A stretch of DNA of 64,000 nucleotides, taken from NCBI GenBank assembly GCA_021234155.1, contig JAJEKV010000051.1, positions 5,708,698-5,772,697 on the forward strand, written 5' to 3'. The position numbers and the translations under genes were made by a program. The notes beneath the pieces were generated by a model. The model saw only the letters and a list, made by a program, of their open reading frames with translations, was not told the DNA's origin and did no database searches. Shown piece by piece: positions 4,111-64,000 of this stretch (positions are counted from its first letter, which is position 1; every line of letters starts with the position of its first letter). The DNA comes from Isoetes taiwanensis (taxonomy: Eukaryota > Streptophyta > Lycopodiopsida > Isoetales > Isoetaceae).

Positions 4111-6240
4111 ATCGCATTACGAAAGAAGAAAGGACATCCAATAAGAATATGGCCAGAAGGACTGGTAGTATTTTCCTTTCAGCAGGCCCAGGAGATAGAC
4201 TAGTGTTCTAAGGGTGGCATTTCAAAAGGCTTATGGACTTCCTGTTATAAGAGCAAAATCCAAAATTGAGATCTTTTAAAGAGTTATTGAAGAGCGATAT
4301 GAATGACATGTACGCCGTACTAGGGCTCTTCGGCGAAGTTGATGCGACGTTTTACCTTCTCGCCAGCAGCCCGTCTTCAATACGAAAGAATAACGTTTGC
4401 TTTGGAATGATATGGCCCGATTTATAAAGAGGATTGTGAGAATATCCTTTATACCTCGATTTTTACGTATTAAATAAAGAAGATTTGAGTTTCAGAAATT
4501 AAGGTTCTAAAGTGTAATAATTATTGACTAAATGTGGATTTGTGTGGAGTGGCATCGTAACTTAAGCGGTGATTAATTTTAGGACAAAGTGTGGAATAGA
4601 TCCCACCCTCATAGATCAGCGGGTTTTCGCGTTCCCAGGCGGGCGCTGGCGCCTTGTCGCAGTACAGCCAGCGATCGCCACTGGTGAGGTCAAACTGAAA
4701 TAAGGAACAACCCGACCAACTCCGGCAGATAGCGAAATTTCCAAGCGCCAAAGTGTGGTCATCTAGATCTGGCAGGAGACCCCACCCTGCGGAAGTCGCC
4801 CCAGCCGCACTTTCAAAAATTTTAGAACTAGGAGCCTCATGGTGCCGCTATTGTGGAATGGCTGAAATAAATAATATAACTCAAACTGCCTCCGTTGAGT
4901 AAAGTGGTTACAATAGGATCGTGGAAGCCCTTGCAGATATACCACTGACACGCTTGACCACCATTGTCAGTTAGACCAGGTGATGGGCATCCCGGCGTAA
5001 AATTCGCAAATTCGGTTATAAATGTAATGACTCAGGCCCTCCGTCCGCGTCCTTTCCTCCGAGGCGGTTTTCTTGCTCGGAAGCTTCATCTGTATACGTT
5101 TATTAATCCCCATATGGTACCCTGCATAAATTGCCCACCGAACTACCCACCAGAATCATGAGGAGTTCCGAAACCAAAGGTTGGACTGCCTGTTTGGTGC
5201 TTGCTTCCTAGTACCATGGTACTTCGCCTGAAACTTGACCATAGAGCAACATTGGTGATCGTGCAACATCGATAATTAACCGAAAAAATAAAACACTTTC
5301 GCGTACGTTACTATGAGAACTCATACCAATTAATTGTATAACACTTAATATAAATGCTCCACTTTAAGCTTTGAGCTGTTTTGTTCATATATTTTGTTGA
5401 AAAAAAGAACCTTATCCAGGATAATGATTTTAAACCGATTTATATCGTTTCATGCTATATTGAGTGGAGAATGGAGTATTGGTTTTTAATGACTCGCCCC
5501 ATTGACCATATTGGATAAAAACGGAACTTTAAATGTTTAAATTTTTCATCAGAAAAAATACTTACATGGACACACTATCAAGGCGGTAGAACATTCGAAG
5601 TGAATTGGATGGGCGGCAAAAGTTTGGAGATATTCCGGGGCTGTTTTGGAATTGGTTTCAATGGCGCCGGGGTTTCATTCTGATGTGAGCACTACATAAA
5701 GAAGCGAGGATGGTAATTTTATTGTGGAATTAGGGTTCCACTGATGAATTGGTTTACCAAATTCGGACGACACCGAAACAGGATCACTTTTGGAGGCAGA
5801 AGTTATAAATGGGTATATCTGGGGAAGTTGAAGTTAAAGCTGGTTTCCAAATTTAAGTATTGCTACGTAGTGTGAATGTTCGTTGTGAAATATCCCGCAC
5901 GGTTTTAATATTAAATATTCTGAAAATTGAAAATCTTAGAAATAATTGTAAAGGAAACAAATGGAGCACTGGATGTTTGTTTACGCAATGGCGAAATATG
6001 AGAGCAATGGAAGCCCTCGGAATCCCCGGTAATTTTTTTTTCAAAGGGATATCATTTCGCTCTGCTCGGGAATAAAACTGGCATGGTCCACCAATCAAGT
6101 CTGATCCGAGAAAACACCCTTATTCACCCTTGTTCTGGCTCCTAGAATTCTCTTCGAGGCATGAAACTGATAATCAGCAAGAAGGAGAAAGGTCTACCTA
6201 ATTAGAACCAGCTTTGGATAAAGTTAAGTAAAACCTGACT
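4111..6240. other. Repeat-derived DNA without a recognisable gene
   Basis: I see no coding region I can support. A 76-codon frame on the minus strand (4,521-4,751) lies in a locally GC-rich patch and reads like protein, with a segment GDRWLYCDKAPAPAWE, but I do not recognise it. It may be decayed LTR-element sequence, given the neighbouring gypsy remnant. The rest is AT-rich with short unrelated frames. Confidence 0.35.
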
Positions 6241-11966: not shown

Positions 11967-14900
11967 TTATTCTAGTTGGTCTTGTGGTTTGGGAGAAAGG
12001 AGTATTGCAGTATACATCCGAATCCGATCTGATCTAGATGAACAAACTGTAAGATTCCGATCCGTCTTGGACAAATCTGTAGATGGTGACACAATAAGTG
12101 ATCTAGAGTATATTTGGGACTTGAATCGTCTCCAAGCCAATTGGATTGTTACAGCAGCCCAAGTTCGCCAACCTGGTGAATAATAACGTGCTATACGTTT
12201 CAAATTTTCATTTGCAACTTTGTATCGGAAGTGCTCAGTGACATATTTAAGATCTTGTGCCTCAAGGCCAAAGGCTTCAACTGAAGTCAAACATGTTAAT
12301 GTTGCTATTGAAGGTGGCAATCTATCTACAAAAGGTTTGCGAAGACACCATGAAAGCAACTCATCTCCACAAAAGTTCCCAGGCACAAGTGTAAAAACAC
12401 TAAATTTGTTCCCACTTAGTTGATGAATGCTTTGTAGATACCCTCTTACAATGAATACCATTTGCAATACAGGATCTCCATTTCGTATTACCTATAATAG
12501 TAAAAGATTGGTACATTAGTAGAAAATTAAAGATACCATAATGCATACTCAATTTTAAAAAGATATATACAATCTTATTGATTACAGATACTTTTGTTAG
12601 GTGCAATTGAAACTAAAGTTTACCGTTTCACCCTTCACAAGAAGTAAAGGCTTGACACGATCACATATAGAATCCAAAACAATCTCATCCATTTGGACAA
12701 AAAGTGGGACCTGTATATAAATGTGTCAATGGCATGTCGATCATCAAATGTCATTTAAAGATATATTTACTTGGCGAATAAGATCAAGGCATAAATGGCG
12801 CTTTATGTCACGTCTAATCCCTTCAGGAAGATCATGCACTATCAATATCTCATCAACTCCTCGGGTTGATGCCCATTTCTGACGTTCATATTTTCGAACA
12901 CGCTGTCGAAGAGTTGACGGGAGTTGCCTACGCTTCATCCACCATTCAAGATCTCTAATTTTATTGCGCATGACTTCTTTTTTTGCTAGAATGGATTGTA
13001 AGAATACCTAGATAAGATAAAGAAATTAGTAATAATGCTTATTATTTCTAAAGTCTACCATGAAATTGCAATTCAACAGTAGTTACCTGTATGTTTCCAA
13101 TAAGAAGAGTGAACAATAACAAACCGCATGTGATAACTAGTATAGCAAATGCCACCTCAATTAAGTTATTGCTTGGTATGAGTGCATTACCAAATGAGCT
13201 GGAGATATAAGTATTCTAATTTTTACTATTAGAAGGATGTCAAGCTTTATTTAGCAAGTGCAAGAGATCACCTTAAAGTCATTATACCCCAGAATATTGA
13301 ATATAAGACACGATTTAACCAGTTTCTAGTTGTTACAAGTGGCACCGTAGTTTGAAAAATGCCGTATCGGTCGTGATCGGCTACTAAACAATGTGACGTT
13401 ATGTTCAAATACTCAGATGATAAATATCCATATTTGTCATTCGTGTAGAACGTTATTGGTTCATCACAACCTAGTGATCTGATAGTGCAAGTATCTGACT
13501 TTTTACAGCTTGTATAGAAACACGATACAATGCGATGAATTGCAAGCAAGTACCAACATGAACCGGCCACCTAGTAAATAATGAGTAATTGCCAATGAGA
13601 TGCAAATAAAACCATCAGAAGAAAAAGGAAATTAAAGAAAATTAATTTATCTCGTGAATATAAACTAATAAACGGTTCCCTATAATTCTCACATGATCCC
13701 AAGTACCACGCCAAAACAGACAGGTTCCACATTGACTATCATGAAGGAAGATATTGCTCAAGTCTCACAATATCTTGCTAAGGATCTGGAGGGCATGCAT
13801 GCATAATTGTTGAAGTGGAGTAGGCTTCATATTGCTCAGGTCTTGACTAGTATATTCAATAGGGCTCCCCAAGAAGGCTTTCTCTTACATTGGAATGCCA
13901 CTACCCTACCCTTTATACGGCTGCTGACTGCCACTGCCCTGTCACGATCAAAACCTCATTGGAAAAAATGTTTGCCAAGATTTTCAAACATCAATTCACA
14001 GCATGGAAAAAAGAACTAGGGTTTGTGCATTTCGCCAAACTGATTTTAAAGCTAAGCACTATTTTCCTATTGTGCACTTTACTAGTAGACAATCAAAATA
14101 AATGACAGAGATCATTATCGCTGCTTTATGGATTTTGAAAAGATTTTTTATCATTCTTAGGGAGGAGCTATGGGGGAGATTGCCACAATTAGGTGTCCCT
14201 CAAGAATTGCAAAATGCAGTAAACTGGTTATATCAAACAGTCTCAAATCGAAGCCGCCATTCAGTTAGCCTATCAATAGTAGTGCGGGAGTGTGCCACGA
14301 ATGTCCACTCCCTGTCAGACTATTTGAACTATACATTGATCAACTTGAGGGTTGGTTTGCTTAGCGTGGAAATGGAGGGGTTCGGCTTATTCGTCACATT
14401 ATCAGGTAGCTGATATGCAAATGATGTGGATCTTTTGGCTTATACCCCTGCAAGCATGTATCAACATCTGAATGCACTTAGTTGGTTTTGTTAGAACACT
14501 GGAATGTGGGTCAACTTGGCCAAGATCAAGATTCTTTTGTATAGAGCACCTCGTTTCACCTGGTACTAGGGTCAAAATGTGGAGGTGTTGCAAATGTACA
14601 AAAAAGAAATTTAAAACCACCACATACTAGAGCACATGTATCCAACAATGGATGATCACAGGTTGGAAGGTGTTGTATGCCATGCAAAATAATAGCCACA
14701 AAAGAGAGCTTCATGACTGGTCCTATTGGGTCTTAAATCCCACACTTGCCTGTGGCCCGCAGTTGAATTGAGACAAGCAGATGGGCCAATCAACTGCGTG
14801 AAAATAGGAATGTCAAAGTTGTCAAATGGGAACAATTGAAGATGAATGGAATACTCTTTAGATTTGCCCAACATTTACGACTATCTGAGTACGTCATTTT

Positions 14901-17900
14901 GATACACCTAACTAGCTACTATATGTGCTTTTATAGATCCAAAGGTTCTTCATCGTTAAGCTGAGTGATTTCTTCAACGCATTGATATGTACAGATTCAT
15001 CAATGAGTTTATTACTGTCAAAACATTTTCCTCAAAAATCCTTTAGGTTGGGTTTTTTTTTATTGTGTATAGTATTGGGCTTCTTGTGCTCAATTCAATT
15101 CAATTCAATTTAATTAAGTAATGAAAACACATTCTTAATGTCCAGGGAAACCAAAGGTCTATGTGATCTAACATAATGGATGCAACAAGTGCATTACTAG
15201 TTAGGATTAAAACATATAGTTATATCTGAAACTAGTATATGTCCATGTAAATATGAAAAGTACTCTTTACACCCGTAGGCAATTGCAGCAGTAACTAAAT
15301 TTCACAATATTATAGTTGTCAACTAATATTACTGGCATAGTTCAGATACATCTCATTATTTGGCTGTAGCAATTTCATGGTATTGAGAGAGGGATTGGTG
15401 TGAAGGTCAAATGGTTGACATGGTCTTTTCAACCATCCTGGAGGTCTTGATAGATTGATCTCACTAGGTTCAAAGTTTATTTAGAAGAGATGAAAAAAGC
15501 CAATGTGTTTCAATTGTTTTAGTACTCCATCTCTTTCCTTTTAGGATAATTCGATGTAAATGCTAATAATGATACTTCCTTAGGAGGTATATCCATTGCA
15601 TGGGGTAAATTTTGATATATTCTATACTGTGTATAGGTTGCTAGTAGTGATCACAGGGGCGATTGGGATATAAAATATGATAGGCGGGACAAAATCTAAT
15701 CTGGTGCAAAGGCAGCATTGAGCATGGCCGAAAGGCAAAATGTGGGGGCAGTCATCAAAATAGTACTTATAGAGATAGTAAATTTCAAAAGAGACTCGGA
15801 TCATGTTGTTCTGGTAAGAGTGCAAAAGTACCAGAGTTAATGAGGCCTAAACTGTTGGAGCAAGGTTTCTTTAACTGTACAAACATATCAATTACATGCA
15901 GTGGTAATGAAAAGGCTATAGCTAGTAGTACAATGAAGATATGAAGAGAGAGAGTTAAACTACAGGTTACTATGGGTGGGAGCATGATTAACAGTCATCG
16001 TATCGTTTGTACGTAGTAATGGTGCATGCGTACGTGCGTACGTAAATGCGTCGCCCAAATGTTGGATGTCTTGTTGATCGAGCACCAACCTCGCGTTGGA
16101 GGTAGCGTCTTTCTCATCATGGTTGATTCCAAAGCATGTGCATCGGATCCATATGCAAGAAACTTCTACTTGTGCCAATGGTAAATGCTAGGCTTTTCTC
16201 CTAGCTTAATTAATATTGAACACTTTCATCCCATATCGTTTATGGAGCTATGCTCTCATCAGACTATCATGATCGAGGATTTTCTTGTTTTCAAATTTTA
16301 ATCGGTGGAAGAATCGGCCACAATGGACTTCAGGAGGCTACTATAACTATGTAGAATGCATAACAACTGGTTATTTTTGGAAAGTGTTGATTGGGTGCAA
16401 AGAGATCCATTGAGGGCATCTTCATGCTATTGGGCAATACTGGAGTAGTTGCAGTGTGGCAATATATCAACCCCTCAGTGTTTTTATTCCGTCCTCTATA
16501 AGTTTATTATTCAGGGCTATAGATTTCACTTTAAATCCAATCCACTTACTTCAAAGCTCTAGTTGCTTATGTGAGTTCCAAATGTTGCTTGGTTCCATGT
16601 TTTTTTGTTTCAAGATTTGGATTTTCTTCTACACGATGACACTCATTGCCTTCTCCTTTACTTCCTTTATTGTATCCAGGAACTTCTATGATGTTTGACC
16701 ATTTAAAATGTTGGTTCCCAGTCTCTAAATTTCTTTTGACTTGTTTGTTCAAGAGTCCCTCATTAAAAATTTAAATGGCATAGGTACTCACTTGGCCCAC
16801 TCTAATAGGTAGACAAAGATATGTGTGTCCCTATTGGTACCGGGGTTGTTACATCATTAAAAGGAGCTCACGGTAACGAAATGCATGTGATAGCCTTTAT
16901 CACGAGATGCTCATGAGCAACTGCAGCGATGCATGCACAAATTGCAGGCGAGGCTCTAGGTCCACTAAGGTGAACTCCAGCCGGGAGGGAAGGCAACTCC
17001 ATATATCTGCTTAGGCCCCAGCATGTTCAAATGCACGAATGACTTCAGTCCAGACATGCAATTACTACACCATCATGTCGGCCCATGCCGCCGAAAGCCC
17101 AAACAAGCCACAATCCACACCTTGTAGGCAGTCCTGAATGCCTATTGGGATAGTCGGCCATTGACCTAAAAATCCCGAAGGAAACATCAAAGATCAAAAA
17201 CAAGAGGCCATAATATGGCGGTGGTCGGGACTATCAAGAAGGCGAGGGAGAACCTCATTGAACACCTCTAGATACTGGTCCTCACTCGTATGGCATTCCA
17301 TACACCCATACACATTGTTAGGGCAAGTTGCATCGCTGCGACGCCGCGGTAGTATTATCACACTTATGATTCTTGATCTGGTCACGAGGGAGTTATATTG
17401 CGCTAGAGGTTGAAGGGATGTCCTCTATCTTGACGGAGAATCTCACTATGGCGCAATAAGAAATCATGCGGGGCATGGAGTTGACCAGTTAAGGCATCTG
17501 TGCTAGAGGGGTATGAGGACTATTCGGGAGCAGATGCTGATCTTTTCGGCCGCCAAACAATTGCAAACCTTCCCCGAGGTCCCACCAAAGCCCAAGCTAC
17601 TCTTAATCATGCTCCTACTTTACCCGCTCCAGCCACACATCCCCAGTCATGCTTCATATACCTCCATACACCGCATCTTTGCTTTAAACCGCCACCTCCC
17701 ACTTGCCACTGGGCGGACTGCATGCATGCAGTAATCGCTAATAATGGGGAATTATTAGCTTCCATATGGTCTCTTAGAATTGTCGAGGCTTCCTATGGTA
17801 GAAAGGAAATAGTCTTAATTCAATTGCTACAGATATGGATCTCATCTTTCTTATGGAGACATGGAAGCGTGTCGGCCATAGGCTACGGGCACATGAGGCT

Positions 17901-20900
17901 ACTGGCATTACTCGGGTCTTCAATAACCGCATACTGGGAGACTACTACTACCGAACAACGTCTGGCACAATCAATCTCCCTATACAAGATGATAGGCGGA
18001 TACGACGTTGCTTGTGGAGTGCAGTGCGGATGCGTTGATGACCCCCTCTTCGTGGCGGCCTGCTACTTCCCACATGCAAAAAGCAACTTTTATTACACCA
18101 ACTCAAATGTAGATAATCTGGACCCCTATGTCAACCTATATGATGACATACAGGAGCACATGACTCATCGAGGATTTCAATGCATGCAGAGGGATGGAAC
18201 AACCCATAATTTTGATCCTTAGCTGAGGATATGTTGCAGCTGCACTCTGCAGGAATGGCTTGGACATGGGCATCAGATGACAACTAGGTCGCACGCTATG
18301 GTAGAAAGTTGCTTTTGCTCAACAATATCTTTGACATGATAATTTGCAATAGAGGAGCACATTTGCCATCCTCCTGTAGGTACATTTGCAGGTAGAGGAG
18401 AACCAGGTGGGCAGGTCCAGTATGGTGGACTATGTGTTGGTGGCTGAGCAGGGTATGCATATTGTCAATCACTTTTGCATGGGCGCAGATAGTAGAGATG
18501 AAGAAGTCAACTCAAACCACCTATCACTTTATCTACAACTGGCTTGGTATGCTCTTCGAGCTCCTTCTAGTGCAGCTCCTTGCATGCCTCAGCTATGTTT
18601 GGATTACAAAGATGCAGAGGCTTATGCTCAGATGCTCACAAATGACCTGGAAGGAATTTTGCAATTTCCTACCAATTCAATACTATGAATAGTTTGTCGT
18701 GGAATGTTTGGAATGCCACTTCTTTTTCAAGTAAAATGAGCAGATTATCTCTTTATTTGTAAAATTTCCATGAATTTTTATTGCCTTCAAGAACATAAAT
18801 GTTGTACAGGTGATATCACAAGTTGGCTGCTATTACAGATTGTGACTACAAAGTTCTAATTCTGGCAACTGACTCAATCTGGAGTCTTCACTACTTGGAG
18901 GTCTTCTATTGATGTACATTTATCCAAATTGATAGGTTTGGTTGTTTCATTATTATTAAATGGTAGGACAAGATTAGAAAGGGACATAGTGTATGTTTAT
19001 GCTCATAATCGACCGAGTCAAAGGGGTTCTCTATGGCCTTCTGTAAGAAGTAAGGTTCTTAGATTTGTGAATGATGTTGCTTGATTTATGGTTGGTAATT
19101 TCAATATGGTGGAAGTAGAAGCTGATAAATGTGTTATGGATCAAAACTAATTCAAGGGTTTGAGAGGGAGCAATGGGGACGCTTTTAGCAAGATTGTGGC
19201 TGGGTGGAAATTGATGGGGATCAATCCTACACATGGTGTAATGGTTATATGGATAGTGGTAGAGCGTGTGCTTGCCATGATCACAACTATGATAATTGCA
19301 ATTGTCGTTGATTTGGTACTTGATTTTTGCAGGACTAATCTTTTGGATAATTTACTTTAGATCACAATCCAAATGGTTCTCTTATTTGCTGTCAAATAAT
19401 AGAAGGCCAACTAACACATTTTTCAAGCTAACGAAGGGGAAATGTTAGGTGTTGTTGTTGCCATGGCTCTTGACAAATCATTTGCAAACGAATGAGGTCA
19501 TAGAAGTACTTGACGCTAGAGTATAGTTGACACTGGAATATGCGGAGCTCAGGCCCCTTCTTTTGTAGTTAGAGAATAGAATAGAATAGAATAGATTTTT
19601 TAACGTCTACGGAGACCAATAGGTCATGGGACCCATACAATGGGCTAGTACAATCATTACTACTAGGATTAAAAACCCTTGCCTCGACATAAATTAAGGT
19701 ATTGAGGTTGAGCAGGTGAACGCGGCTAGGTTGATAGCTGGTCTACAATGGTTCAAGTCTAGTGATAAGTCAAATTCCTTTTTAGGGCTGCTAAAATGAG
19801 GCAACGACAACTTTAGTTAATTCTATTTTCTTATTTCTGGCCCAATGGTGATAGGTCACAATTCCTTTTTAGGGCTGTTAAAATGAGGCAGATTTAACGA
19901 CTTAAGTATTCTATTCTTTTGTTTCTGATCCAATGCGGCTAAATCACACCTTCATTTTGTCTTATTCTTTGCTAGAGGCAGCAATTATCTTTTAATGGAG
20001 ATATGCAATCTGCTATGTGGACTAAAGTGCATTTTATTGTCTCAGTAGAGCAATGTGCACTTCTGAAGATAAATATCATTAGGGATGACCTAGGTTCCGC
20101 GGCTAACATCTTGAAGGAAGGAAATTTTCCAGGTCTTGATGGTTTTCCAATAGAAGTTTTTCAAGAATATTGGGGATGGATTAAAATTATGCATATAATG
20201 CATTTTGTGAATCTAGAAGGTTTAGAAGTTTGGATAAAATTCTCAATACAGCTTGTGTTTCCCTTATTTCCAAGTGCAAAGAATCCAAAACCATTTCAGC
20301 GTCCTATAGCACTGTCCCTATTGTATATAAGATGTTTGCGAAAGCAGTGGCAAATAAGCTGCCTAGTATTTTTGTCGAGTCAATATTTTCAACCTAGATA
20401 GGATTTTTGCCTGGAAGGTGCGCCCTTGATAATGTTGTCGCGGCTATGAAGGCATGTATTGGGCAAGGATAAGGGCCCATTGCATTGCGTATCTCAAGCT
20501 TGACTTTAGTAAGGCTTATGACAATGTGGATTGTATTTTTTAGAGAACTCCTATTGGTGTCAGGGTTTGGTATCCCATTCATAAGGGATGTTCTCCTTAG
20601 CATCTGGAGTATTGGTATATTGGAAAAAGTGTTACTATATGGAGTCTAGATGATGAATCCCATCATGTGTCTTACTTATCCTTGGAAGGTGCTGCCTCAT
20701 GGCAAGGCAACCAAACTTCTTAGTATTCCTGTGAGCATTCATGTTTCAACTTCTAATGCTTGGGATGCCATAATAGATGGGTTGTAGAGGCACCTTTTTT
20801 GGGTGAATATTGCTAGGCTCCCTATGCCTGGAAGGGTGATAGTTACAGGTATCTCGGAGTTAATGTGCTTGTATACAAGATTGTCCCTAGAGTGTCAGAT

Positions 20901-23144
20901 CTATGTCCGTTATGCAAGCGTGAAGCTGAGATCATTAAGCATTGCTTCTTGTTATATAATCATCTTAATAGGTATGGGAGTGGTTGTTCTTTCTTTGGTC
21001 TAATGGTAACACACTGGTCTTATGACATCTATATCTTAAGTTCGAGACCACCCAGAGTCACACTATATATAGGCCCATCTTATAGCTCGTTGTAGGGTTC
21101 ATGTGGACGTTAAAATAATATCTATCTGTCTATTTCAGGTCTCACTAACAAGTCAACCTATCTATATATCTTTTTCAGGTCTCTCTAACAAGTCAACCTT
21201 TTGGCAATTCACCCCAGTGCCTGGATGAGATTACAAAGCCAGACTTTTCGTCTAGCATCAGATTGGTTGCTTTAAACTATCTCAAAGGTCTGGATGTGGC
21301 AGATGACCATGTTTTTCAATATGCTAAAGGTAGCATTGCTAAGGCTTATTAGTGTTCTTCACTTACCCCTCTTAAGTGGCACTTGATCTTTGAGGTGTAT
21401 TTGGATGTGGACTCTTATGCATAGCCAGGTTTCTTCACTTAATAAGTTTTGATGATCCTCTGAAATTTTATTTCGATCTTTGCATATTTACTTGTACAAG
21501 TGCTTCTTGTTAAATAAAGTTTGGCCTCCTTCAACAAGAAGAAAATGGAAAGAGACAAATAATGTTTGTTTTCTCAGCTTAAAAATATAAATTCTATTCT
21601 ATTCTATTCTTCCAATATAACATCGAATATTTTTCGAGGCAATCATCAGATCTAAAAACATTTCAAAGCTTTACCAAAACCTCACCCCACTTCAAACTCT
21701 TGCTATGGCAATACAAAATTGATATTATCATGTATCACACTTTTTGTTCATCAATGCTCCTGCAATAGTCTTCAAGGTCATCAGCAAATAGTGTACTTAA
21801 GATGTATACTTTCACAACAATGTTTTATTTACAAATATATGTGACTCCCAGGGGATTCACCTATATGTGTTTGGATATGGCATGTGTGTTCTTATGGTCA
21901 GGCCATGATCATTGTAAAATGAGTGGGGGAAGGACCCACTTTAGCCATGTACAGTAGTGGAGGCAGAGCTCATCTGGGTATGTTGTGTCCCATAAGCTTC
22001 AGTTTCTGGTGGACGTCATCTATTCATCCACCCATCCATCTATCATAGGCATGAAAATGCTTTGCTATATCCTTATACTCCTTAAAATACGACTAGACAA
22101 CTGAGATAAATGGTAGATACCCCTTATTATATGTACAAAATATGCAATAAAAAACCCCTTAGCATACACTCAGATGGTTTATATAGATACCACAAGTGCA
22201 TCCTCCTTGATACAACTAATGTTCTACTTACAAGTTATTTGATGAAGAGAAAATATTGCTGAAGAAAATGAGTACTTACATGTGCAGCGATCAAGTAAGC
22301 AGTTAAGTTAAGCACAAAACCCCACCATGCAGTTCCAAATATATATCCAGTAACATGTTGCATTCGTTGTACAAGCATGAGCAAATGAATAACTTTGTAA
22401 GTGAACTCAAAAAGGAAAATGACCATTAGATTCATTATTGCATGCACTGTTTCTGATTGCTTAATGTTTGTAGGAATAATCTTCCAAATTGCAATCTGGC
22501 AATTTTACTTTGTTAGAATGCTTGAACTATTTTAATGAATATAAAAAAGTAAATATGCATATTTCACGAACCTGTAATATTGGAAAAATCACTAGAACGT
22601 CAAGAATAAATCCTCCAGTCGGATATAGATAATGTAATGCAATCTTTCGTGCATCCCATACAAGTTTTCCGCGTCCAACTACAAGCGATTTTTTGGCAAC
22701 ATAAGCCAGCTTAAGTTGCAACCACATGTGCCACAAGGAACTCACATCAATAATGCACCTCAATACAGTTGGAAACATTGCAAAGACACCATCTACGGCT
22801 AGGCATGCCACTTCTTGTTTCATAATCATTGCAAATAAGAATAATGGATCGATGGCCAAACTCATGAATCTAGAAAGGAGAAAGAAACGATTCCATTTTT
22901 GAATGCTCTTGCTTCGAGGATCCAAAACCTTTCCAAATATCCACTCTTTTCTTGCTTTATGCATATGTGAGTTAGAGATTTTACCGGGTGTGAGGAAGGA
23001 TTCTTTAGTATCTCGTTCTAATGCAAAAGAACTTACATGGTGACATTTAGTAAGATGATGAGGTGGGGGTCCTCCGCTAGAGCAATAGATTGGGTACCCG
23101 GGTTTGGGTGGAGTATTGTGCTCACTCTCCACCTTAGAAGTCAT
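11967..23144 (-). CDS. CNGC2-like: Cyclic nucleotide-gated ion channel, CNGC2/CNGC4 clade
   Basis: Seven exons read from right to left: 23,144-22,572; 22,495-22,280; 13,570-13,272; 13,198-13,087; 13,007-12,771; 12,710-12,624; 12,491-11,967. All six introns are GT-AG and phases match, giving 682 codons, normal for plant CNGCs. Exon 1 carries the N-terminal region and first membrane segments (VLDPRSKSIQKWNR, LVVGRGKLVWD). Exon 2 has GYIFGTAWWGFVLNL. The pore helix is WGIMTL and the filter triplet is G-N-A at residues 366-368, followed by the S6 block LLLFTLLIGNIQ. The linker has EWWMKRRQLP. The cyclic-nucleotide site is PGNFCGDELLSWCL (546-559) and a calmodulin-binding IQ motif lies near 619-634. 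These features, and the C-terminal end, resemble Arabidopsis CNGC2 and CNGC4, plasma-membrane Ca2+-permeable channels of immunity and development. Intron 2 is 8.7 kb and full of LINEs. The start is the first ATG of exon 1; an upstream coding exon is possible. Confidence 0.93.
13800..14900 (+). mobile_element. LINE reverse transcriptase fragment in CNGC intron 2
   Basis: Plus-strand frames, broken by stops and shifts, spell the middle of a LINE ORF2. Blocks include QEGFLLHWNATTL with a FAKIF-like segment, then EELWGRLPQLGVPQELQNAV (about 14,163), a GCPLS-like region, and LFGLYIDQLEGWF (about 14,320). DVDLLAYTPASMYQHLNAL (about 14,425) follows the catalytic Asp pair, then MWVNLAKIKILL. A later segment, GWKVLYAMQNNSHKRELHDW (about 14,665), matches the same position of the minus-strand element at 33,220-34,620, so both belong to one family. 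It lies antisense to the channel gene. Confidence 0.82.
14901..16990. other. Intronic DNA with no recognised feature
   Basis: AT-rich intron sequence of the channel gene. A short CAATT repeat lies at about 15,090-15,115 and a GTACGTGCGTACGT tract near 16,030. I see no supported coding region; the frames at 16,456-16,698 and nearby are low-complexity and unrelated to known families. Confidence 0.4.
17000..18690 (+). mobile_element. 5' part of a LINE with AP-endonuclease domain
   Basis: A plus-strand LINE piece in CNGC intron 2. The 240-codon frame 17,500-18,222 mixes frames. The true endonuclease path includes DLIFLMETWKRVGHRL (about 17,834), then LFVAACYFPHAKSNFY (about 18,046) and YVNLYDDIQEHMT (about 18,128). 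A later segment is SMVDYVLVAEQGMHIVNHF (about 18,420) and a C-terminal block ends near SLYLQLAWYAL. These are the EN-domain blocks of plant LINEs. The reverse transcriptase that should follow is absent; near 18,690 the sequence switches to the start of a second LINE. It has stops and is inactive. Confidence 0.75.
19563..19700 (-). mobile_element. LINE/SINE 3' end with ATTCT tail
   Basis: Read on the minus strand, this is a GGCAAGGGTTTTTAATCCTA block, then GTACTAGCCCATTG, GGTCTCCGTAGACGTTAAAA and a short (ATTCT)n tail. The same order occurs at 57,630-57,775 (plus), 33,222-33,340 (minus), 25,665-25,745 (minus) and 40,700-40,862 (plus). It is therefore the 3' end of a repeated retroposon family, here inserted into an older LINE. 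Confidence 0.72.
19768..19955. repeat. Tandem duplication of about 87 bp
   Basis: Two adjacent copies share AATTCCTTTTTAGGGCTG and AAAATGAGGCA and a TTTCTGNCCCAATG block. The period is about 87 bases, with many substitutions. Confidence 0.7.
20993..21140 (+). mobile_element. tRNA-derived SINE with TATC tail
   Basis: The head resembles a tRNA gene: a box A-like GGTCTAATGGTAACAC near 20,997 and a box B-like AGTTCGAGACC near 21,039. It is followed by a short body and GTGGACGTTAAAATAA running into (TATC)n. The same head and tail pattern is at 31,576-31,733. It is not a functional tRNA: no cloverleaf can be completed. A 40-bp tandem repeat containing AACAAGTCAACC follows at about 21,134-21,200. 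Confidence 0.65.
21885..22045 (+). mobile_element. SINE body with GTGGACG 3' end
   Basis: Contains ATGATCATTGTAAAATGAGT, a GGGAAGGACCCAC block, CATAAGCTT and GGTGGACGTCATCTATTCATC. This matches the fuller copy at 49,250-49,485 block by block. The tail here has drifted from (ATCT)n to CATCCA-type repeats. The tRNA-like head is not clear in this copy. Confidence 0.6.
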
Positions 23145-23876
23145 TGGGTCCTCCCTTTAGAAAGGGCACATTCCACACCAAAAACAAGAACAAAATGAAT
23201 GTGAGTAGGAATAGGAAGGAGGAAGAATATATAGGAGTAGTAATAATTACACCTCAAAATCCAAAATATTTCAAAAGGTCTAACATCGTATTATTGTTCT
23301 ATTTTATATGGAATAACACCGCCACAACATATTGCTGCAAGAATTAGTGCACCACCCATGCAAAGAACTATATTGGTGCTTTCTTACCTCATCAAATTGA
23401 GAGTGTCCACGTTTTAGCAAATAATAAGCAGAGATATCTAAGGGAGGTCTATCTTTGTCTAGACATCAATCAATGCCTTCTTATCTCATCCTTTTATTTA
23501 GTAAAGGAATATTAATAGACAAGGATCTTAACACTCGTGACAAGGCTTAGTGTTAACGTACACGCATATCATATGATTAGACAATCTATTTTGTTGCACA
23601 TAGAAGAAGTTCGTGCTAAGACAAACATGCAACTACCAACTCTACCAATTTTGCGCGCATGCACAACATCTCACATCAACATTGAATGTTCTTCCAATTT
23701 GAAAGTAATTTTTTTTCTAGATTACACAATTTTGTGCCAAATACGTTTTAGAAGCATATTGAAAAAAGCAAAATTGCACACCTTAGATACATAATTAAAA
23801 GTTCTTAATGAACATCATAGAATATACTAGCATATAACAATTGATCTAAAAGTCATCTCATCGATAGGATAAAGAA
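23145..23876. promoter_or_regulatory. Intergenic region between divergent Ca2+ channel and Ca2+ pump genes
   Basis: This 732-bp interval separates the start codons of the channel gene (minus) and the Ca2+-ATPase (plus). A TATA-like CTATATATTC, read on the minus strand, lies at about 23,226-23,235, some 85 bp upstream of the channel ATG. On the plus side only weak AT-rich elements precede the pump ATG, such as CATATAAC near 23,831. No repeat insertion is recognised in it. If the candidate upstream exons of the channel at 23,388-24,419 are real, the two transcription units overlap instead of sharing a simple bidirectional promoter. Confidence 0.5.

Positions 23877-64000
<40,124 letters not shown>

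Follow-up and report, generated by a model that had tools for sequence, protein, structure and literature searches.

A CNGC2/4-type channel gene and an ACA8-type Ca2+-ATPase gene lie head to head in Isoetes taiwanensis, probably with separate core promoters

In the quillwort Isoetes taiwanensis, a CNGC2/4-type channel gene on the minus strand and an ACA8-type type IIB Ca2+-ATPase gene on the plus strand were found to be divergent neighbours, arranged head to head with 732 bp (23145-23876) between the CNGC start codon at 23144 and the ACA start codon at 23877. The window, the whole 64,000-nucleotide stretch of DNA that was analysed, is part of the 10.4-Mb contig C1058, and positions are those of the window. 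Splice models and PDB matches bore out the original prediction in its gene identities, strands, coordinates and 732-bp spacing, and the observation of channel-pump pairing is confirmed; the predicted span, 22572-25582, is bounded by the 3' ends of CNGC exon 1 and ACA exon 3. The original prediction also knew of no described CNGC-ACA head-to-head pair; literature searches in the open part of PMC found none either, nor any description of paired or divergently transcribed plant Ca2+ channel and Ca2+ pump genes. The kind of arrangement is ordinary, and the pair of members is unusual. Like the plant head-to-head pairs in the available text on rice (PMC4885881) and Arabidopsis (PMC2851598), the two genes lie on opposite strands with starts less than 1 kb apart, as measured between ATGs; unlike those examples, the pair has an AT-rich 732 bp between its ATGs and is known here from genome sequence alone.

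This is probably a pair of ordinary genes, each with its own core promoter, whose head-to-head adjacency is specific to the Isoetes lineage and does not represent an old selected module; the likelihoods that we attach to this explanation and to its rivals overlap, so that their total is not one. CNGC and ACA would each be driven by a core promoter of their own in the short intergenic region, with open chromatin and perhaps some regulatory sites in common. A rearrangement or duplication within the lineage would most likely have brought the two genes together, and their shared chromatin is likely to give weak to moderate co-expression, at most modest. It is possible that, as originally predicted, one bidirectional core promoter sets the balance of influx and efflux.

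The CNGC gene comprises seven exons, which join into a single open frame of 682 aa from the ATG at 23144 to the stop at 11967, with GT-AG boundaries in all six introns:

22572-23144, minus strand: CNGC exon 1, 191 codons, ATG at 23144 (splice model; plant CNGC match; top hit in the genome search)
22280-22495, minus strand: CNGC exon 2 (splice model)
13272-13570, minus strand: CNGC exon 3 (splice model)
13087-13198, minus strand: CNGC exon 4, with the pore segment SSFGNALIPSNN (splice model)
12771-13007, minus strand: CNGC exon 5 (splice model)
12624-12710, minus strand: CNGC exon 6 (splice model)
11967-12491, minus strand: CNGC exon 7, with the cyclic-nucleotide-binding domain and the stop (splice model; Pfam)

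We take exon 5 to follow the last transmembrane helix and to hold the C-linker, and a segment of exon 7 is presumably of the IQ type. Among the best 60 of 95 PDB matches, two CNGC15b constructs ranked at the top (best E = 2.3e-130), followed by CNGC5 and CNGC1. Residues 71-631 align with CNGC15b, as in a full-length plant CNGC with a cyclic-nucleotide-binding domain. Pfam cNMP_binding matched with E = 2.7e-4 and 21.3 bits, under the curated cut-off of 27.5, and at E ≤ 0.01 the Pfam search gave no ion-transport domain.

The likeness of this 682-aa protein to the Arabidopsis group IVb channels amounts to 54% identity with AtCNGC2 and 49% with AtCNGC4, over 545 shared columns and with provisional Arabidopsis sequences. 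A second CNGC2/4-type copy, on the 29.5-Mb contig C1067, is 61.7% identical to the window CNGC. When two-against-two site patterns were compared among four sequences only, two of them (CNGC2 and CNGC4) provisional, the window CNGC sided with its Isoetes paralogue at 26 sites, and not with CNGC2 (9) or CNGC4 (4). These counts favour a separate duplication, and the assignment of the window gene as the CNGC2 orthologue and of the C1067 gene as the CNGC4 orthologue is disfavoured; by such comparison, "CNGC2/4-type" would be a fair label. In the pore, the window CNGC has GNAL, as against AND in CNGC2 and GNL in CNGC4. The pore segment of the C1067 paralogue, SSFGNLSPTNH, is one residue shorter than that of the window CNGC, and its length presumably parallels that of CNGC2 and CNGC4.

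For the pump, 22 exons were placed from the ATG at 23877 to 63157, and the gene extends past the window end, with two more exon matches in the 10 kb that follow (stretch L043). The exons form three in-phase, stop-free blocks with AG and GT at every internal boundary; a phase mismatch indicates that one or more short exons between 25582 and 32131 are absent from the model, and the donor following exon 2 (GTTAAT) is a predicted one.

23877-24032, plus strand: ACA exon 1, 52 codons, ending in KKWR (PDB match; exon-end scan; splice model)
25323-25396, plus strand: ACA exon 2, with the calmodulin-binding/autoinhibitory motif (PDB match; splice model)
25543-25582, plus strand: ACA exon 3 (splice model)
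32131-32213, plus strand: ACA N-terminal exon (match to a paralogue peptide, L047, with E = 5e-4 amid many chance rows; splice model)
36981-63157, plus strand: 18 more ACA exons, all sharing a phase, with TGES, DKTGT and KGA motifs (PDB; Pfam; splice model), continuing in L043

The conserved body, which begins 13 kb downstream of the ATG, matched ACA8 best among PDB sequences (8.8e-170), followed by plasma-membrane Ca2+-ATPase 1 (3.5e-89), and the Pfam domains E1-E2_ATPase, Cation_ATPase_N and Cation_ATPase all scored above cut-off. We take TGES, DKTGT and KGA to be the P-type pump motifs. The 90-aa peptide of exons 1-3 was compared with 177,635 PDB sequences; only eight matched up to E = 10, and the top three were the three entries of ACA8 (E = 0.055, 0.2 and 0.65). 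It aligns with the ACA8 segment QQWRKAALVLNASRRFRYTLDLK, the calmodulin-binding autoinhibitory segment, so that the type IIB combination of a P-type ATPase with such a segment at its N-terminus was found, on ACA8 matches that are weak singly. The placement of the 5' exons nevertheless appears convincing despite these weak E-values, because all three matches are to ACA8, the first intron fits at KWR, and the pump paralogue on contig C974 shares the KKWR exon end. Exon 1 also matched ribosomal protein L10 weakly (E = 1), which was dismissed as chance.

With the ACA8/9/10 group (ACA8, PDB 8qmp and 4aqr) the window pump shares an intron-rich gene, the KWRK...RFR N-terminal motif, DKTGT and TGES; it differs in its calmodulin/autoinhibitory motif, which has diverged from NASRRFRYTLDLK. 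The canonical form is retained in the C974 paralogue, while the window motif (25323-25396) keeps the W and F positions, and calmodulin control of the window pump may be altered. Identity to ACA8 is 66.9% for the C974 paralogue and 60.0% for the window pump, rough figures over 305 shared columns that include some intron residues.

Several introns of the two genes contain inserts or repeats. One insert lies in the pump's first intron, outside the 732 bp:

24541-25150, no strand assigned: (AGGA)n run (24541-24578), then a retroelement-like insert, in ACA intron 1 (retroelement nature judged by eye)

Farther along the pump's introns, three diverged copies of a ~0.94-kb unit, each with a stretch like AAAATGGAAGTTGGGGAGCCATTTT, were seen by eye at ~25980-28700, and a reverse transcriptase ORF lies at 57836-58636 on the minus strand (RVT_1, E = 1.8e-24). 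LINE-like fragments were likewise recognized by eye at ~18000-21500 in CNGC intron 2; a Pfam search of the ORF at 17500-18219 in the same intron found nothing. No direct or inverted repeats of at least 18 bases were reported in 22500-26000, although the (AGGA)n run falls in that range.

Between the start codons lies the following stretch:

23145-23876, no strand assigned: both 5' leaders, with candidate promoters that are either shared or back to back (GC 33%; single genome match)

Its GC content is 33%, with 11 CpG against 20 expected. Motifs were counted on both strands against 500 first-order random sequences, giving 3 TATA-like matches (2.66 expected), 3 CCAAT (1.83), 2 HSE-like (0.60) and 1 ABRE-like (0.20). 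The CGCG box is a Ca2+/calmodulin-responsive motif of the CAMTA type; one palindromic copy lies at 23653-23658, which counts as 2 on both strands against 0.17 expected (~0.09 sites). The CAMTA core CGTGT (0.21 expected) and GGCCCA (0.07 expected) were both absent from the 732 bp. The 800 bp examined upstream of the unpaired CNGC paralogue also contain a CGCG box, which is therefore not a mark of pairing; in the 660 bp that precede the outer first exon of the C974 pump gene, none was found. None of these motif counts is taken as evidence, and neither composition nor motif counts revealed a clear bidirectional-promoter signature in the AT-rich 732 bp. A sigma-70 promoter scan, meaningless for a plant, gave no excess (4 found against a mean of 3.0 in shuffles). 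In a whole-genome search that skips very common words, the stretch matched only itself, and from this self-match no recent duplication of it was seen.

The genome searched was an assembly of 1,658,258,908 bases in 1110 contigs; for the published I. taiwanensis assembly, PMC8566536 gives 1658.30 Mb, made up of 204 scaffolds plus 909 contigs, with 39,461 genes. Introns are not modelled in the searches, and short exons escape them. The C-terminal half of the CNGC gave 24 matches at 12 places, with all 32 candidates scored, and the N-terminal half gave 14 matches, with all 38 scored, including a few weak places absent from the C-terminal set. At least 86 matches were obtained for the pump with 87 of 140 candidates scored, and were grouped by us into at least 32 places; five of these 32 were set aside as other P-type pumps by their lower identity, leaving about 27 that are type-IIB-like. 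A PF00122 family search gave 81 genome matches (124 of 124 scored), none of them in the window, whose pump was presumably missed on account of its short exons.

No ACA match was found on contig C1067, which carries the other CNGC2/4-type gene (87 of 140 pump candidates and 124 of 124 PF00122 candidates scored), and pump probes found nothing in 8.4 kb of 5' flank of that CNGC. Conversely, both CNGC searches gave no match on the contigs of five ACA8-like pump paralogues (C974, C908, C1037, C996 and C978). This contig-wide absence is a better test than the 6-kb stretches read at the 5' ends of the pumps on C974, C908 and C1037; these contained no CNGC, a weak test in that the C974 stretch reaches only ~0.7 kb past the outer first exon and no first exon was located for C908 and C1037. 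Besides the window, three contigs carry both types of match, ~0.87 Mb apart on C1063, where the CNGC match is weak and has stops and the pump matches are 31-51% identical, ~5.5 Mb apart on C1078 and ~17 Mb apart on C907. A second close CNGC-pump pair did not turn up in the genome, and the arrangement was not found at paralogous copies, in a pump search that is not exhaustive at 87 of 140 candidates scored. A lineage-specific origin is favoured because no ACA was found beside the C1067 gene and no CNGC beside the five ACA8-like paralogues; the same absence is compatible with an old pair that was lost beside the duplicates.

By chance, roughly 0.004 divergent CNGC-ACA neighbours would be expected, or 0.005 with all 32 pump places, if 12 places for CNGC and ~27 for type-IIB-like pumps are taken among 39,461 genes, with a divergent share of 25% (6,077 of 24,638 neighbours in Arabidopsis, in the available text of PMC2851598). 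This rough figure is low for the named pair, yet the pair was picked post hoc among very many meaningful-looking ones. Mean gene spacing in the genome is ~42 kb (1.658 Gb/39,461 genes), against which the two genes, at 732 bp, are unusually close together, and selection could be what keeps them so.

Yardsticks for co-expression come from Arabidopsis, where the available text of PMC2851598 gives divergent pairs a mean r of 0.152 below 400 bp and 0.060 above, convergent pairs beyond 400 bp a mean r of 0.050, and random pairs 0.014. Back-to-back promoters are favoured for the CNGC and the ACA because raised co-expression is there confined to divergent pairs below 400 bp. That threshold runs between transcript ends, and the 732 bp of the window between ATGs; the distance between the two transcription starts may fall under or over 400 bp, and with leaders of ~170 bp on each side it would drop under.

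Chance adjacency without any shared control, with independent promoters and that of the ACA perhaps reaching into its large first introns, is somewhat unlikely. It overlaps the favoured explanation, which differs solely in allowing shared chromatin effects. The single instance among 12 CNGC places and at least 32 pump-like places is consistent with it, as are the 13 kb that separate the conserved ACA body from the ATG and the inserts in intron 1. Total independence is made improbable by neighbouring Arabidopsis genes, which are on average co-expressed above random in the available text of PMC2851598.

A doubtful alternative is that channel and pump are co-regulated from a single bidirectional promoter, which would raise the capacities for influx and efflux in step, as a transcriptional layer above the calmodulin feedback on both proteins. 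According to the accessible part of PMC9194748, Arabidopsis cngc2 and cngc4 mutants are defective in flg22-induced Ca2+ influx, CNGC2-CNGC4 heteromer currents are inhibited by calmodulin, ACA8 and ACA10 shape flg22-induced signals, and Ca2+/calmodulin relieves ACA autoinhibition. By analogy with these roles of CNGC2/4 and ACA8/10 in the same flg22-induced Ca2+ signals, joint transcriptional control would make sense, and the divergent order, the 732-bp spacing and the palindromic CGCG box (~0.09 sites expected) point in the same direction. Against it, the arrangement was not found at paralogues of either gene, and the CGCG box is present 5' of the unpaired CNGC paralogue too. The composition of the 732 bp (GC 33%, CpG 11 against 20, TATA-like 3 against 2.66) is unlike that of the plant bidirectional promoters described in the available text of PMC4885881, which are GC-richer with fewer TATA boxes. 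Unless the leaders are long, the ATG spacing also falls in the range where Arabidopsis divergent pairs, in the available text of PMC2851598, are not co-expressed beyond convergent pairs. Co-regulation together with conservation would make the pair a rare plant case in which genes for Ca2+ entry and Ca2+ removal are physically linked, and it would then show naturally whether transcription, beyond calmodulin feedback, matches channel and pump amounts; if not, the pair would be a tidy example of meaningful-looking neighbours arising in a large genome. The stronger form, in which the quillwort channel and pump are driven from one Ca2+/calmodulin-responsive bidirectional promoter with its CAMTA-type CGCG box, entry and removal capacity being set jointly as a genetically linked module, is very unlikely.

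Least probable of all is a misplaced ACA start, with a foreign exon 1 at 23877 and the real promoter farther downstream: the first ~40 codons of exon 1 lack an ACA match, and the C974 paralogue seemingly has two alternative first exons, so that another start could exist in the window pump, but in the top three PDB matches ACA8 aligns with the DIMKKWR that closes the exon, with the phase-0 intron and with the motif of exon 2, the KKWR exon end recurs in that paralogue, and of five W[RK]/GT candidates in 14000-25323 exon 1 alone combines a Met in frame with a length above 20 codons. Two separate core promoters within the 732 bp remain our preferred reading.

In the C974 paralogue itself (stretch L045, G000:C974:3806800-3812799, minus strand), the two similar first exons lie at ~5185-5334 and ~2370-2531, ~2.8 kb apart, each with KWR ahead of a possible splice donor, which suggests a duplication of exon 1 and the presence of two promoters in that gene.
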